Shown: positions 1 through 59,507 of the stretch, in pieces
Layout: the number at the start of each line of letters is the position of its first letter
Position numbering within the stretch: the first letter of the stretch is position 1
Origin: Wenjunlia vitaminophila DSM 41686
GTDB taxonomy: Bacteria > Actinomycetota > Actinomycetes > Streptomycetales > Streptomycetaceae
Direction: 5' to 3'
Length of the DNA: 64,000 nt
Assembly: GCF_000380165.1 (NCBI RefSeq)
Contig: NZ_KB904665.1
Location: 1-64,000 of the forward strand
Translations under genes and position numbers: made by a program
The notes under the pieces: generated by a model
What the model saw: the letters and a program-made list of their open reading frames with translations, nothing else
Databases searched by the model: none
Told to the model about the DNA's origin: nothing

Positions 1-510
1 CCCGTCCGGCGGGACGGCCGCGGCCTCAGCCAGCTCGCCGAGGAACTGCTTCATGTGGCGGGGGGCGAGGCGGGACGCCCACGGCAGGACCGGCCTCCGC
101 GTCGGCGGCCACGCCTCCACCACCACCTTGCGGACCGCATCCAGCGCGGCCTTGTCCCCACCGGAGCAGGCCGCAGCCAGCTCCCCCAGGAATCCCCCCA
201 GATCCTCAGGGGTCAGGTACCGCGCCCACGGCAGCGTCAGGGGGTAGCCCCCGTTCGGCTCCGGGTCCGCGATGTGCCAAACCGCCCGGTCACACGACGC
301 GGCCAGCGGACACCCGACACAGGTCCAGTAGGCCCGCTCATACGCCCGGCGCCATTCAGCGGCGCTGACCGTGCTGGTCGGGTGCTCGACCTTGTCGTAC
401 AAGTCCCACTTCCCGACGCAGGCCGGCGTGGGCTTCTCCGTGATCCGGGTGCTCGTACCCCACCCCGACTCAGCCCGACTCATCCCCGTCGGGCGCACGG
501 CCATAGTCAT
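1..510 (-). CDS. WhiB-like Fe-S regulator, 3' end beyond window
   Basis: An open frame of 170 codons runs from ATG at 510 to the left edge without a stop, so the C-terminus is missing. Cysteines lie at residues 31, 64, 67 and 73, giving C-x32-C-x2-C-x5-C, the iron-sulfur ligand pattern of the WhiB family (usually C-x about 29-C-x2-C-x5-C). The usual G-[VI]-W-G-G turn after the last Cys is not obvious; the segment there reads WHIADPEPNGG. The visible length already exceeds a typical WhiB (about 80-130 aa), so a C-terminal extension is present. Its ATG overlaps the stop of the upstream small gene (ATGA), implying translational coupling. ATG at 504 is an alternative start. Role inferred: redox-responsive regulator of the mobile element. 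Confidence 0.6.
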   Translation of the reverse strand, partial: MTMAVRPTGMSRAESGWGTSTRITEKPTPACVGKWDLYDKVEHPTSTVSAAEWRRAYERAYWTCVGCPLAASCDRAVWHIADPEPNGGYPLTLPWARYLTPEDLGGFLGELAAACSGGDKAALDAVRKVVVEAWPPTRRPVLPWASRLAPRHMKQFLGELAEAAAVPPDG

Positions 511-632
511 CGCTGACCACCCCCGCGACCTTCCTCGCTCCGCTTGTTGGCCTCCTTCACCTTCCTGCTGAGCTCCGCCCGCTCCTCGTCCGTCAGGGCC
601 GTGGCCCCGATCGGGATACCCTCGTACCGCAT
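507..632 (-). CDS. 41-aa hypothetical protein
   Basis: A 41-residue product (starts MRYEGIPIGATALTDEERAE) with a strong ribosome site (GGAGGAAGG) just before ATG at 632. It has an amphipathic, charged middle (ELSRKVKEANKR) and a Gly/Arg tail, with no domain that I recognise. The stop overlaps the ATG of the WhiB-like gene by four bases, so the two are translated as a unit. A longer in-frame extension to 749 is open but lacks a ribosome site. Such micro-genes are common in actinomycete integrative elements. Confidence 0.55.
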   Translation of the reverse strand: MRYEGIPIGATALTDEERAELSRKVKEANKRSEEGRGGGQR

Positions 633-814
633 GCCTTCCTCCACATCAGGTAGGTGTGCGAAGCCCCAGGCAGCGCGGCAATCGCTGTCTGGGGCGCGTT
701 CGTGCTGAGCCGATCCGGCTCCCCGCGACCCCGCCCGTACGACGCACAAGGGCGCCGGACGGGCGAAGGAGGCAGCCGGCCCCGCCGCTCTGCGCGGCGG
801 GAAGCTTTCCGCGG

Positions 815-1237: not shown

Positions 1238-2080
1238 ATGAGCCTTGACCCGAACGATGAGCGCCCGCCGTACTTGCAGGTCAGCAGCGTGCTGCGCGCC
1301 GAAATCCTCACGAGAAAGTTCGAGCCCGGGAAGCAGTTGCCGTCCGGACCCGAGCTGGCGAAGCGGTTCCAGGTTGCCCGGGGGACGGTGACCCGGGCCC
1401 TCGACATGCTCAGGGACGAAGGGCTGATCGTGACCCGCAAGGGGTCCGGCTCCTTCGTCCGTGAGCGGACTGAACGACCGGTGGGTCTGCGGCCTCACCT
1501 GGAGATGGCGTTCGCCGATCCCCACGTCACGGTCGACTTCGCCGGGTTCAGCAGCGAGACGCTGCACAGCGCGATGCAGGAACCGCTCGACAAGATTCGC
1601 GCTGGCCGACTCCGCCCCGAGTCGATCGAGGTCCGGCTGCTCCTGCCGGACACCACGGCGCCGATGGCGGTGCCGACGCTAGTGGACGGGCTCAAAGACG
1701 ACCCTGCGCTCCGCGACCGAGCCCGGGACATCGCGCTGACGGCTGCCGCTGGCATCCGGCACTCAGTCGAGGTGCTGGCCGAGCTCGGACTGGTCGAGAA
1801 GGCATCGGTGAATGTGAAGGTCTACCGAGCGACATCGCTGTTCAAGCTCTACGTCCTCAACCACCGCGACGTGTTCTTCGGCTTCTACCCGCTGCGCGAA
1901 CGCACGATGGAGGTGGCGAGCGAGTCGCGCACCTTCTTCGACGTCACCGGCAAGGACGCCACCCTCTTCCACCACGCAGCGGGCTCCGACAGCGAGTCCA
2001 TGGGGTCGCAGTACGTCCAGCAGGCCACCAGGTGGTTCGAGAGTATCTGGAACACCATCGCGTACGAGCGTGAGTCATGA
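1238..2080 (+). CDS. GntR-family transcriptional regulator, 280 aa
   Basis: Residues about 10-75 form a GntR winged helix (Y-L-Q-V-x5-R-A-E-I then LPSGPELAKRFQVARGTVTRALDML and a GLIVTRKGSGSFV wing). The 200-residue C-terminal half is not an obvious UTRA or FCD ligand domain and I cannot name it. The protein probably controls element genes from the palindrome 52 bases upstream. Its TGA overlaps the ATG of the HAD phosphatase (ATGA), so the pair is one operon; GntR-HAD pairs of this kind recur in streptomycete accessory DNA. Confidence 0.85.
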   Translation: MSLDPNDERPPYLQVSSVLRAEILTRKFEPGKQLPSGPELAKRFQVARGTVTRALDMLRDEGLIVTRKGSGSFVRERTERPVGLRPHLEMAFADPHVTVDFAGFSSETLHSAMQEPLDKIRAGRLRPESIEVRLLLPDTTAPMAVPTLVDGLKDDPALRDRARDIALTAAAGIRHSVEVLAELGLVEKASVNVKVYRATSLFKLYVLNHRDVFFGFYPLRERTMEVASESRTFFDVTGKDATLFHHAAGSDSESMGSQYVQQATRWFESIWNTIAYERES

Positions 2081-2790
2081 GCATGCCCTCGGAGGGACTG
2101 GCCTCCGTCCTTGCTCCTGTACGGCACGTACTCCTCGACTTCGACGGTCCTGTCTGCTCGGTCTTCGCGGGGGTTCCGGCACCCGAAGTCGCGCGGCGCC
2201 TGGCCGAACAGTTGTCGGGTCCCGACGGTCCGCCTCCCGGGCACGAGGAGTCCGACCCGCTGGCAATGCTTCGGCGGATCGCTGACGAGCGGGACGACCT
2301 AGTGCCACTGGCTGACGAAACGCTGGCACGGCTGGAGATGGAGGCCGTTGATCGGGCCCAGCCGACACCGGGCGGGGTGGCCTTCCTTGAGGCGTGTGCA
2401 GCGAGCGGGCGTGTGGTCTGGATGGTCAGCAACAACGCGACGGTGGCCATCGCACGCTACGTGGACACCCATGGACTCGGCCGACTCATCGCCGGCCAGT
2501 TCGGCCGGGTGAGCGGTCATCCGAGATCCATGAAGCCATCCCCGGAGCTCCTGTTCGCTGCGATGGCGGCAGCCGGGGCAAGACCGGGCGACTGCATCTT
2601 CGTCGGCGATGCGGTGCGAGACATCGAGGCTGCCCACGCCGCTGGCATGGATGCGATCGGGTACGCGAACAAGCCGGGCAAGGACGCGGCACTGACCAGG
2701 GCTGGAGCTGCAGCAGTGGTCACCTCGATGGGCGAGCTGGCCCGGGCGACAGGAGGGGGGAGCTCGGAGTCCTTCGCCTCTCTGCCCTAA
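2077..2790 (+). CDS. HAD-superfamily hydrolase (phosphatase-like), 237 aa
   Basis: All four HAD motifs are visible: motif I LLDFDGPV (nucleophile Asp near residue 23), motif II WMVSNN, motif III Lys in SMKPSP, and motif IV GDAVRDIEAA. An insertion after motif I gives a helical cap. Length and order fit a phosphoglycolate phosphatase/beta-phosphoglucomutase-like enzyme; the substrate cannot be read from sequence. Translation is coupled to the preceding GntR gene by ATGA, which suggests either that its product or substrate is the GntR ligand or that the pair moves as a module. Confidence 0.85.
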   Translation: MSMPSEGLASVLAPVRHVLLDFDGPVCSVFAGVPAPEVARRLAEQLSGPDGPPPGHEESDPLAMLRRIADERDDLVPLADETLARLEMEAVDRAQPTPGGVAFLEACAASGRVVWMVSNNATVAIARYVDTHGLGRLIAGQFGRVSGHPRSMKPSPELLFAAMAAAGARPGDCIFVGDAVRDIEAAHAAGMDAIGYANKPGKDAALTRAGAAAVVTSMGELARATGGGSSESFASLP

Positions 2791-2939: not shown

Positions 2940-3239
2940 CTACGAGTCGGCGCCCGGAAGTTCCCCGGACTCTCCGCCCTGCCGCACGGTGACGAACGTG
3001 CCCTTGTTGGGCAGCGTGACCACCAGCCCGCGATCCCGTAGTTCCTGGACTGCCCGCCGCGCGGTGCCCGGGGCAACGCCGTACTGCGTACCCATGTCCC
3101 GCTCGTTCGGCAACCGCGCGCCGTAGGGCAGACGCCCCGCCCTGATCTCGGCTTCGACCGCGTCGGCCACGCGCACGTACACGTACCCGATCTCATCGCT
3201 CACGATCGGGACCGTAGGGCGATGGTCTGCGGTCGGCAT
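2940..3239 (-). CDS. Short GntR-family regulator, 99 aa
   Basis: Almost the whole protein is a GntR winged helix: Y-V-Y-V-R-V-A-D-A-V then LPYGARLPNERDMGTQYGV, the recognition helix APGTARRAVQELRDRG and the wing LPNKGTFVTV. It has no ligand domain, like the short GntR proteins of actinomycete integrative elements. ATG 3239 was chosen because GGAGCT lies nine bases upstream; earlier in-frame codons extend to 3311 without a ribosome site. It is divergent from the 3347-3604 gene and probably controls the shared promoter region. Confidence 0.8.
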   Translation of the reverse strand: MPTADHRPTVPIVSDEIGYVYVRVADAVEAEIRAGRLPYGARLPNERDMGTQYGVAPGTARRAVQELRDRGLVVTLPNKGTFVTVRQGGESGELPGADS

Positions 3240-3346
3240 CGGCAGGTAGCTCCATACAGCCCCATGCAGCGGCCTATAGCGGTAATTTGACGAGAACCCC
3301 TCGGGGGCCACACATCCGGCCCGAGGGTTGTCCAGTCAGGGAGCTG

Positions 3347-3604
3347 ATGAGCATGGGGAAGTCTGCCGGACGCACACCCGATCGAGGGAAGCAACCGAGG
3401 ATGGAGGACTGGCTGCGGTGCGGTGCCACCGTGCTGGACACCGTCACCGGCCAGACCGGGGTGGTGATGTCCGTCGGCCTGTACTCCGGAGACCGGCAGC
3501 TCGAGCCCCCGACCAAGGTGTGGCTCCGTCCGCCTCAAGGGGGCGCGGAGTGGGTGACGCAGGCTGACGACCTGGAGCCAGTCACGCGCGACCAAGCCGG
3601 GTAG
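3347..3604 (+). CDS. 85-aa hypothetical protein
   Basis: ATG 3347 follows CAGGGAGCTG, a good ribosome site. The product is small, hydrophilic and has a central run (W-L-R-C-G-A-T-V-L-D-T-V-T-G-Q-T-G-V-V) that looks like a compact beta barrel (SH3/KOW-like pattern), but I cannot assign a family. It is the last gene of the element before the tRNA-Ser remnant. No integrase is seen on this side. Confidence 0.6.
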   Translation: MSMGKSAGRTPDRGKQPRMEDWLRCGATVLDTVTGQTGVVMSVGLYSGDRQLEPPTKVWLRPPQGGAEWVTQADDLEPVTRDQAG

Positions 3605-3760
3605 ACGACGCCGGCCGTTCTGCCCGACGCCGACCAGGATGCCCTGGTCTCAGTTCTGGTCTCATTCATCGACGGTCGCGGCCGTTCACAGTCGTCCAGA
3701 CGAGCCGATCAAGCCGGTGCCGCACCGGCCGTGAACCGGGCTGTACACTCGCTCACAGAC

Positions 3761-3816
3761 CTCGAAAGCGTGTGAGGGGGCAACTCCTCCGTGGGTTCAA
3801 ATCCCACCGCTACCGC
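3761..3816 (+). repeat. tRNA-Ser 3'-half, candidate attachment site
   Basis: From CTCGAAA (an anticodon loop with CGA) onward the sequence reads as a tRNA-Ser: a variable arm GAGGGGGCAACTCCTC, a T arm GTGGG-TTCAAAT-CCCAC and an acceptor strand CGCTACC plus G. The matching 5' half (it should start GGTAGCG) is absent; the bases before 3761 do not form D or anticodon stems. A 3'-half tRNA copy is the standard scar left by a tyrosine-recombinase integrative element, so this is probably one att site of the element lying to the left. Confidence 0.7.
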
Positions 3817-3830
3817 TTCTCATGTCAGCA

Positions 3831-3857
3831 CCCCGCAGGGCAGGCGCCCTGCGGGGG
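3831..3857. terminator. Strong hairpin terminator
   Basis: A perfect 11-bp stem CCCCGCAGGGC / GCCCTGCGGGG with an AGGC loop, followed by GTCTTGG. It sits 14 bases after the tRNA-Ser remnant, where the original tRNA gene terminator would be, and so belongs to the original chromosomal tRNA locus. Confidence 0.7.
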
Positions 3858-3950: not shown

Positions 3951-4115
3951 ATGGCACAGGCGAAGAAGGTCACCCTCTACATCCTGATCGTGTTCGTCCT
4001 CTACACGATCATCAGCTCACCGGAGCGTTCAGCCGAACTGGTTCAGATCGGCTTCGAGGGCATCTCCAAGGCCGCCGGGCAGATCGGCGAGTTCATGACC
4101 GAGCTCGTCAACTGA
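3951..4115 (+). CDS. 54-aa single-pass membrane protein
   Basis: ATG 3951 is preceded by GGGGAGGCAGCGC, a strong ribosome site. The product has a short cationic start (MAQAKK), a hydrophobic segment at about residues 7-22 (V-T-L-Y-I-L-I-V-F-V-L-Y-T-I-I) and an amphipathic tail (ELVQIGFEGISKAAGQIGEF), so it is an N-in, single-span small membrane protein. Small proteins of this build are widespread in actinomycetes; function is unknown. It is too short for simple ORF filters. Confidence 0.75.
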   Translation: MAQAKKVTLYILIVFVLYTIISSPERSAELVQIGFEGISKAAGQIGEFMTELVN

Positions 4116-57917: not shown

Positions 57918-59507
57918 TCAGCCCTGCTGGCCCGTGGTCTCGCCGGTGCCGGCGTCCGTACCCCCGACGTCGGTGCCCTCGACGGTGCCCGCAGAGGTGT
58001 CGTCGGTGCCGGTGTCCGTGGGGGTCGGGTCCCCCGTCGGGTCCGTCGGGGGATCCGACCCGTCCGGCGGCGGGGTGGTGGTCTGGGTCGAGGTCTCCCC
58101 GCCGGTGGGCTCGCTGGTCTCCGTCGAGGTGTGGTCCCAGCTCGGTGTGGAGTCGGTGGTCGGGTCGTAGGTCTCCGGCTCCGTCCAGGTGTCGCCGCCC
58201 TCGTCGCCCCCGGTGGGGTCGTCCGGGGTGCTCTCCTGCTCGGGGGAGGCCTTCGGCTTCTTGCCCGGGTTCTGGGGCGCCTCGCTGGTGGTCCGCTTCG
58301 GGCTGCCGCTCGGTTCGTCGTCGAGCGAGCCCTTGATCGCGGCGAAGACGCCCACGCTGATCGCGAGCACGGCCACCACCGCGACCAGCACCACCCTGCG
58401 CCCCCGCCGGCGGGGCTGGTGGTCACCGCCGTCGGGCGGCCCGATCAGCAACGGGGGCCCCAGCGGTCCGTCCTCGGGCGGGACGACCGCCATCGTCGTC
58501 GCCAGCGGGGTGCCCATCGGCGGGGTGGTGGGCCCGCTGTGACCGGTGGCCCAGGTGCCGGTGTGGCCGCCCTCGCTGGAGAGCATCCGCAGCGCGTACT
58601 GGATCTCGCCGGACATCTCCTCGGCGCTCTGGTAACGGTCGTCCGGCTCCTTGGCCAGCGCCCGCAGCACCAGGCCGTCCAGCTCCGGGGGCACCCGCTC
58701 GCTGATCTCCGACGGAGCCGCCGGAGGGTCCTGGACGTGCTGGTAGACCACCGAGAGGGGCGTCTCGCCGACGAACGGCGGACGCAGCGCGAGCAGCTCG
58801 TAGAGCATGCAGCCGGTGGCGTAGAGGTCGCTGCGGGCGTCCACGGCCCGGCCCAGCGCCTGCTCGGGGGAGAGGTACTGCGGGGTGCCCATGACCATCC
58901 CGGTCTGGGTCATGGTGCTTCCCGCCGCGTGCAGGGCCCGGGCGATGCCGAAGTCCATCACCTTCACCGCGCCCTCGTTGGTGATGATGACGTTCGCCGG
59001 CTTGATGTCCCGGTGCACGATGCCGCGCTGGTGGCTGTAGCTGAGCGCGGCCAGCACCCCCGAGACGATGGCCAGGGCCTGCTCCAACGGCGGGGCCTCG
59101 GCGTTCAGCAGCAGCTCGCGGATGGTGCGCCCCTCGACGAGCTCCATCACGATGAACGGCACCGTCTGGCCGTTGTCGAGCTGGTCCTCGCCGGAGTCGT
59201 AGACCGCGACCACCGCGTGGTGGTTGAGCCCGGCCACCGACTGGGCCTCGCGGGTGAAACGCGCCTTGGCCACCGTGTCGGCCGCGAGGTCGGCGCGCAG
59301 CAGCTTGACCGCCACGGTGCGGCCGAGGCGGACGTCCTCCGCCGCGAACACCTCGGCCATCCCGCCACGGCCCAGCCTGCGGGTCAGGCGGTAACGGCCC
59401 TCGCCCACCTTGCCGTTGTTGCCCCACTGGTCGGGCCCGTCCTGCGGGCCCTCTCCACCGGTGGGTCGATCGGGCCCGGAGCCCCCATCGGCGTGCGTGG
59501 GTGCCAT
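57918..59507 (-). CDS. Ser/Thr protein kinase, PknA/B-type without PASTA, 529 aa
   Basis: Hanks kinase at residues about 40-300: P-loop LGRGGMAEVF, Lys in VAVKLL, catalytic HRDIKPANVI, DFG as VMDFGIA, activation loop STMTQTGMVMGTPQYLSPEQ. One span follows (RRVVLVAVVAVLAISVGVFAAI), then an extracellular Asp/Thr/Ser/Pro-rich tail of about 130 residues with no PASTA repeat. ATG 59507 follows GAGGACTA. It is divergent from the PASTA kinase at 59899, with highly similar kinase domains. Confidence 0.92.
   Translation of the reverse strand: MAPTHADGGSGPDRPTGGEGPQDGPDQWGNNGKVGEGRYRLTRRLGRGGMAEVFAAEDVRLGRTVAVKLLRADLAADTVAKARFTREAQSVAGLNHHAVVAVYDSGEDQLDNGQTVPFIVMELVEGRTIRELLLNAEAPPLEQALAIVSGVLAALSYSHQRGIVHRDIKPANVIITNEGAVKVMDFGIARALHAAGSTMTQTGMVMGTPQYLSPEQALGRAVDARSDLYATGCMLYELLALRPPFVGETPLSVVYQHVQDPPAAPSEISERVPPELDGLVLRALAKEPDDRYQSAEEMSGEIQYALRMLSSEGGHTGTWATGHSGPTTPPMGTPLATTMAVVPPEDGPLGPPLLIGPPDGGDHQPRRRGRRVVLVAVVAVLAISVGVFAAIKGSLDDEPSGSPKRTTSEAPQNPGKKPKASPEQESTPDDPTGGDEGGDTWTEPETYDPTTDSTPSWDHTSTETSEPTGGETSTQTTTPPPDGSDPPTDPTGDPTPTDTGTDDTSAGTVEGTDVGGTDAGTGETTGQQG

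Follow-up and report, generated by a model that had tools for sequence, protein, structure and literature searches.

What ends at the broken serine tRNA copy near the left edge of a Wenjunlia vitaminophila DSM 41686 contig, and how is the integrase responsible directed to its DNA? The locus lies in a 64,000-nucleotide stretch (the window; NZ_KB904665.1, positions 1 to 64,000), the first base of which is also base 1 of the contig, here C31. A half tRNA at the end of a mobile element is in itself an ordinary finding. The arm-type sites of tyrosine integrases, which set the direction of recombination and the choice of DNA, are short and usually hard to find, and it is in these sites that the locus proves more informative.

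The broken copy, which a sequence-only reading of the window had recognized, begins just 5' of the anticodon CGA and ends one base beyond the tRNA end; ARAGORN and Rfam give no tRNA call at this position. That reading had also expected a second copy of the 3' part in an intact tRNA-Ser(CGA), with an integrase beside it at the other end of the element. Among the 111 contigs of the genome, the 58-bp core has one other copy, identical at 58/58 positions and contained within an intact 88-nt tRNA-Ser(CGA) on contig C91; the exact match is not due to chance. The reading had asked for this copy within about 100 kb to the left, but the contig begins at window base 1, and the copy came to light on C91. 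A 433-aa tyrosine recombinase (Int) faces this tRNA and terminates 73 bp from its 3' end. The locus thus has the arrangement of an actinomycete integrative and conjugative element (AICE), an intact tRNA beside the integrase at one end and a direct repeat of the tRNA 3' part at the other, with the two ends on different contigs. Very probably, the broken copy is attR and marks the boundary remote from the integrase in an element, most likely an AICE, that inserted in the 3' end of tRNA-Ser(CGA).

The uninterrupted site can be recognized in related genomes via the 54-aa protein encoded to the right of attR, which served as a marker and matched in 37 of 61 genomes searched. Loci from 29 relatives were examined, and 17 of them contain a tadA-like gene, an intact tRNA-Ser(CGA) and the marker gene, in this order, within 1.5 kb. 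The remaining 12, in which neither tRNA nor tadA occurs within 1.5 kb of the marker, are uninformative, not contrary. In L141, the sole other genome of the same genus, the intact tRNA carries 58/58 core bases with tadA upstream, and L070 likewise has an empty site in which tRNA and flanks are joined. A half tRNA at the marker locus is found in the window's genome only, relative to these 29. Because the flanks meet around an intact tRNA in relatives, the right flank of the window is chromosome, as had been proposed, and the left flank is the insertion. On C91, the gene across the tRNA from the integrase is taken to be tadA, as at this locus in streptomycetes; a tadA-like protein is kept beside tRNA-Ser(CGA) in relatives.

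Table 1. Features at the two ends of the element, on the chromosome to its right, and in the slot between int and att of related loci.
Feature	Sequence	Position	Strand	Evidence or remark
ORF truncated by contig end, WhiB-like cysteine spacing (by eye only)	window	1..510	-	93% identical to end of C34 (sibling element)
Small element ORF, 80 codons	window	507..749	-	ORF list only
GntR-family regulator, long C-terminal part	window	1238..2080	+	PF00392 E 3.9e-16
HAD-family hydrolase, overlaps GntR stop codon	window	2077..2790	+	PF00702 E 1.2e-14
Short GntR-family regulator	window	2940..3311	-	PF00392 E 6.5e-15
Small ORF, family unassigned	window	3353..3604	+	PHROG match marginal (E 0.021); Pfam and NCBIfam negative
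Predicted arm-type pair of the distal end (TGAGACC twice, 12-bp period), 95 bp from core	window	3644..3664	-	21/21 vs C91:5178-5198; homologous pairs in relatives
attR (very probable), tRNA-Ser(CGA) 3' part (nt 32-88 plus one base), direct-repeat core	window	3760..3817	+	58/58 match to C91:5253-5310(-)
Perfect 11-bp stem, 4-base loop, G+C-rich	window	3831..3856	+	by eye
First chromosomal gene to the right, conserved 54-aa protein, empty-site marker	window	3951..4115	+	found in relatives
Protein kinase-like ORF	window	57918..59507		PADLOC PD-T4-6 E 4.6e-192
Primase-like ORF	C91	714..1646		PHROG 5852 (DNA polymerase/primase) E 2.3e-7; no match to Pfam Prim-Pol model
Helicase-like ORF	C91	1650..3125		Pfam helicase match under Pfam's cut-off
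Repeat-rich region between helicase-like gene and xis	C91 (L003)	3290..3500		by eye
Excisionase-type gene (xis), directly before int	C91	3553..3882		TIGR01764 E 4.3e-13, above cut-off
Int, tyrosine recombinase	C91	3879..5180		PF00589 E 5.8e-17; PHROG integrase E 7.8e-66
Intact tRNA-Ser(CGA), 88 nt	C91	5254..5341	-	contains the second core copy
Anti-phage-type genes in slot	L106	11882..18020		PADLOC
Anti-phage-type genes in slot	L092	11855..19410		PADLOC
Anti-phage-type genes in slot	L078	11327..13342		PADLOC
Anti-phage-type genes in slot	L095	11380..12882		PADLOC

Gene content at both ends is in keeping with this assignment (Table 1). Pfam agrees with the two GntR regulators and one HAD gene that had been named to the left of the half tRNA, and the longer GntR protein has relatives at the same place, the far end opposite the integrase, in 5 of 80 integrase loci, with 77% identity to that of L043. 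Two of the original labels survive in part. The "WhiB-like" ORF has the cysteine spacing by eye, without a Pfam, PHROG or NCBIfam match at E 0.05, and the "normal terminator" after the half tRNA is a perfect G+C-rich stem by eye at which a terminator scan that requires a T-run returns nothing. This stem is a plausible, at best probable, candidate for the terminator of the original tRNA gene, now severed from that gene. In its main points, the interpretation of the locus as an integrated element is supported as it had been predicted.

At the integrase end, C91 additionally encodes a DUF6292 protein truncated by the contig end. The region between the helicase-like gene and xis contains many repeats resembling GCGTCACC and GGTGACGC, and is possibly a replication origin. 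Among 72,556 plasmid records, the closest relative of Int is encoded on a 14.6-kb plasmid of Saccharopolyspora endophytica (NZ_KM260754.1; 50.9% identical over 93% of the query). Of 124 relatives of the integrase in genome contigs, the best 80 were kept, and an xis-like gene precedes int in 80/80. One of these loci, L042, places an FtsK-like gene, a primase (68% identical), a helicase (87%), xis and int in the same order on a single contig.

The transfer gene itself is absent from both C91 and the window. FtsK-type genes occur on the small contigs C95 and C99, that on C99 matching PF01580 at 30.6 bits (cut-off 24), and terminal overlaps neither tie C95 or C99 to an element nor link the contigs of the two elements of this genome to one another. 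The second of these elements adjoins tRNA-Pro(CGG), beside which a second integrase is encoded on C79 (L038 1-5338), and the 3' repeat of this tRNA recurs on C34 (L135; 101 bp at 92%). A 26-bp repeat, 96% identical between its two ends, accompanies the core and probably represents arm sites of this sibling. The two elements are alike at their contig ends: C79:1-650 matches C91:1-650 at 94.9% identity, without a difference over the first 142 bases, and C31:1-600, which is window 1-600, is 93% identical to the C34 end. C95 (L014) and C99 (L018) likewise carry different FtsK-type genes within flanks that are 92.9-93.7% identical, which may mean that one transfer gene has replaced another within a common framework. 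Most simply, these sequences would represent two related elements with blocks in common, each with int, att, replication and FtsK genes of its own. Blocks 93-95% identical between siblings would also account for the broken assembly and the missing middle of the tRNA-Ser element, the continuity of which we infer from ends on two contigs with the middle absent from the assembly.

Int would bind tandem repeats near the core as arm-type sites and the tRNA as core, and Int together with Xis would excise a circle that joins the window-base-1 side to the C91-base-1 side through the missing middle. The circle would replicate via the primase and helicase genes, would be transferred as double-stranded DNA by a TraB-type FtsK translocase, and would restore the tRNA on re-integration. 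A prophage or phage satellite in tRNA-Ser, instead of a conjugative element, is very improbable. Related tyrosine integrases do occur in phages (45.5% identity for the closest among 1099 matching phage records), and the element middle is not in the assembly; however, PHROG detects zero phage structural genes among the ten element ORFs at hand (middle of the element absent), similar replication genes occur in L042 together with an FtsK-type gene of the same element, and the genome contains two spare FtsK modules on small contigs.

Beyond the core, the two ends of the proposed AICE share one further exact repeat, the 21 bases at window 3644-3664, which read from the integrase side are TGAGACCAGAACTGAGACCAG and comprise two units 12 bp apart. 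Pairs of TGxxAC units with a 12-bp period, xx left free, were therefore sought in relatives as candidate arm-type sites; a search with an 11-bp period found nothing. Of 81 training integrases, 69 could be assigned a pair; where the tRNA is intact (61 loci), the distance between the tRNA 3' end and the start of the pair is 70-94 bp (median 85). More than 600 bp separate int from the tRNA in 47 of 64 loci, and in 25 of the 64 the distance exceeds 3 kb. The pair thus stays near the tRNA even though int is often far from it, which assigns the pair to att. Background occurrence is low, with one instance of the pattern in 1.38 million bases (both strands) upstream of int in 80 loci and zero in window 4001-64000. 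At the opposite end, the distal pair is 93-94 bp beyond the core in 6 of 7 stacked or half sites that have a right-hand pair, and 114 bp beyond it in the seventh. The two copies of a pair agree at the variable base in 124/126, an agreement partly built into the search. When identity between copies was not demanded, a pair was found in 132 of 149 loci (none in 17); xx is equal in both copies in 132/132, and the next base agrees in 128.

These sites also bear on the least probable account of the locus, in which the half tRNA would be an old scar of a dead element and the C91 integrase part of a later, different one: accretion is common in this integrase family (16 half att copies in 16 of 180 loci examined, two of which are the same places fetched twice), yet the ends described here are identical in both the 58-bp core and the 21-base arm repeat. 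Distinct stacked junctions in which each side has a pair show unlike pairs in the two neighbours in 5/5 cases (xx in four, the trailing bases in one), so that arms without a difference point to a single element.

Comparison of arm sites with integrase sequences suggests that the central bases of the arm can be read from the protein. In the training set, from which L114 was dropped for its split int, Int residue 35 is R in 50/50 loci with an AG pair and Y or W in 19/19 with a CA pair. A prediction on residue 35 was written before the test set was assembled. A family-wide search gave 131 further integrase matches; 100 of these were taken, and 16 at least 97% identical to training were dropped. 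All 57 of the held-out tRNA-linked pairs fit (48 R-AG, 9 Y-CA). After removal of 17 of 143 integrases as redundant, the pooled set, into which six arms at half-tRNA or stacked sites were entered by hand, fits in 126/126 cases (98 R-AG, 27 Y-CA, 1 W-CA), as do 132/132 of the pairs from the unconstrained search. As a score for arm class, the column of residue 35 reaches 0.985 and the next best column 0.503. Residue 25, the second-best column in training (0.716), failed in the test set, where Y, the residue of the AG class, is also present in 7 of 9 CA-class integrases.

The base after xx follows residue 52: E or Q with G, M with T, and S, K, R, G or T with C. This rule, the table of which came from training, fits 122/126 integrases overall and 60/62 in the first test set, the latter not a clean figure because the column was picked on pooled data that included this set. 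A clean test is provided by a class-wide set of 30 loci, from which five already seen and L322 with its broken N-terminus were dropped and which gave 20 usable loci; residue 52 is right in 19/20 of these. Residue 35 is right in 20/20, all R-AG, so that only one direction was tested. Two of the usable loci are at tRNA-Phe and one is at tRNA-Ser(GCT). More generally, integrases of the same family occur at tRNA-Cys(GCA), tRNA-Phe or tRNA-Ser(GCT), with a like arm pair where one was found (L056, L060, L062, L216-L220, L223, L228, L233, L243 and others; L294, L317; L301).

Together, these associations probably reflect an address code, in which two tandem arms of 12-bp period on each side of the tRNA core are recognized at their central two bases by residue 35 and at the following base by residue 52, a code that would have been switched many times and would operate over tRNA-Ser, tRNA-Cys and tRNA-Phe targets. 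Its validity is limited to the main subfamily, because an R35-bearing subclade (L281, L283-L293, with L280) lacks the TGxxAC pair and uses another repeat, an apparent tandem GGACAA, present twice with a 12-bp period and overlapping the int end (by eye). The same subclade is distinguished by another N-terminal motif, ARVPMGYK.

A structural model places these residues in a plausible position for such a role. The model, built for residues 12-196 of the 70%-identical relative L039 (mean pLDDT 84), predicts strands at 11-15, 21-29 and 35-42 and a helix at 45-61 ahead of the core-binding domain. The layout is of the arm-binding type, a three-stranded sheet plus helix followed by core-binding and catalytic (PF00589) domains; no Pfam arm-binding family matches the N-terminal part of Int at E 0.1. 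Int residues 25, 35 and 52 map on or at the end of strands 1, 2 and 3, and would point away from the helix, as judged by eye from the alternation of buried and exposed positions. In this fold, the sheet face away from the helix is the DNA-binding face. Structural comparison aligns lambda Int (1z1b) with model residues 1-174 (Z 16.5, rmsd 11.9, the domains being placed differently) and the DNA-bound AP2 domain (6sy0) with model residues 2-65 (Z 6.8, rmsd 2.2), a score that a common arrangement alone could give. The predicted DNA contacts would be chemically sensible, with K or R for G on the opposite strand and E for C.

Residues 35 and 52 might instead track the arm bases through shared ancestry, with no contact to DNA. 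Such an explanation is unlikely, if better placed than the alternatives weighed above for the element itself. It draws on a strict independent-pair test restricted to supported branches, in which the pairs for residue 35 all agree and are too few to reach 0.05 (5/5, p 0.06, on one tree; 3/3, p 0.25, on another). The same test for residue 52 (E/Q with G) gives 6/6 and p 0.03, counter to ancestry. On trees built without the N-terminal domain, moreover, arm class changes at least 7 times (residues 80-428) or 8 times (larger tree), and residue 35 changes as often and in the same places. The gap between its column and the next best, and the location of both residues on strands of the predicted arm-binding sheet, likewise favour an address code over common descent.

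The differences between stacked neighbours hint that the arm code could act as a label of self and non-self, by which several elements might share one tRNA core without cross-excision. This role is a hint only, because integrase pairs within a genome share a code at the background rate (3/12 vs 0.23, i.e. as often).

Many relatives carry genes in the interval between int and the arm pair, which looks like a port for anti-phage genes. Twenty large ORFs in this slot, chosen by hand from 16 loci, were compared with PADLOC, and 16 match at 1e-5, including type I and type III restriction, Lamassu LmuB, SAVED-nuclease effectors, type II methylases, SspE-like proteins and others (examples in Table 1). 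Ten large chromosomal ORFs from the window served as a control and gave a single match, a protein kinase, so that a kinase in the slot of L047 is weak evidence. The kinase-like ORF listed for the window is probably an ordinary Ser/Thr kinase. In the element described here the slot is empty, and PADLOC gives only marginal matches for the element's own proteins. At L205, int is found more than 10 kb from the tRNA.

The element resembles AICEs, of which pSAM2 and SLP1 are examples (Ghinet et al. 2011, PMC3218068), in its tyrosine integrase at a tRNA 3' end, excisionase and GntR regulator, and there are candidates for AICE-type Prim-Pol replication genes on C91 and for an FtsK/SpoIIIE-type transfer gene elsewhere in the genome. 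It differs in that its middle is unassembled and in its target, since the main-text passages of that survey do not name tRNA-Ser; "Ser" appears in them only for the site of a filamentous phage and as a recombinase-family label. Module exchange among AICEs is already described in passages of the same work and of a Choufa-type survey of a Streptomyces population (2022, PMC9513070). The latter reports accretion at one tRNA and integrase switching, and related elements that trade int, rep and traB modules. The present case adds two siblings in one genome, with 93-95% identical blocks around different int, FtsK and replication genes, and arm-type sites, which go unmentioned in the passages of that survey considered here.

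For the code, searches limited to open-access papers showed one forerunner and, by title or abstract, no further residue-base arm correspondence of this kind. In four Cluster K mycobacteriophages (2011, PMC3203893), whose core likewise lies in an RNA gene and has paired 11-bp arm sites next to it, the N-terminal Int residues 17 and 19 were proposed to follow an arm-site base that differs among the phages. That suggestion came from four phages, whereas the present correspondence spans 126 non-redundant integrases with repeated switches and includes a prediction recorded in advance and tests on held-out sets. The predicted domain shares with the arm-binding domain of lambda and Tn916 integrases (1z1b; PMC8138268, as far as the part of that source used here describes it) the three-stranded sheet and helix before the core-binding domain, and differs from it in the lack of a Pfam arm-binding family match and in site sequence.

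As a further AICE-like element, the insertion is of local interest, and the arm-site code carries greater weight. In this family, arms can be found by sequence and read from the protein, which pairs an integrase with its own att even when the two are separated by kilobases of cargo. The code makes it testable how elements at one tRNA avoid excising each other, and would offer integrases with predictable, switchable accessory sites.
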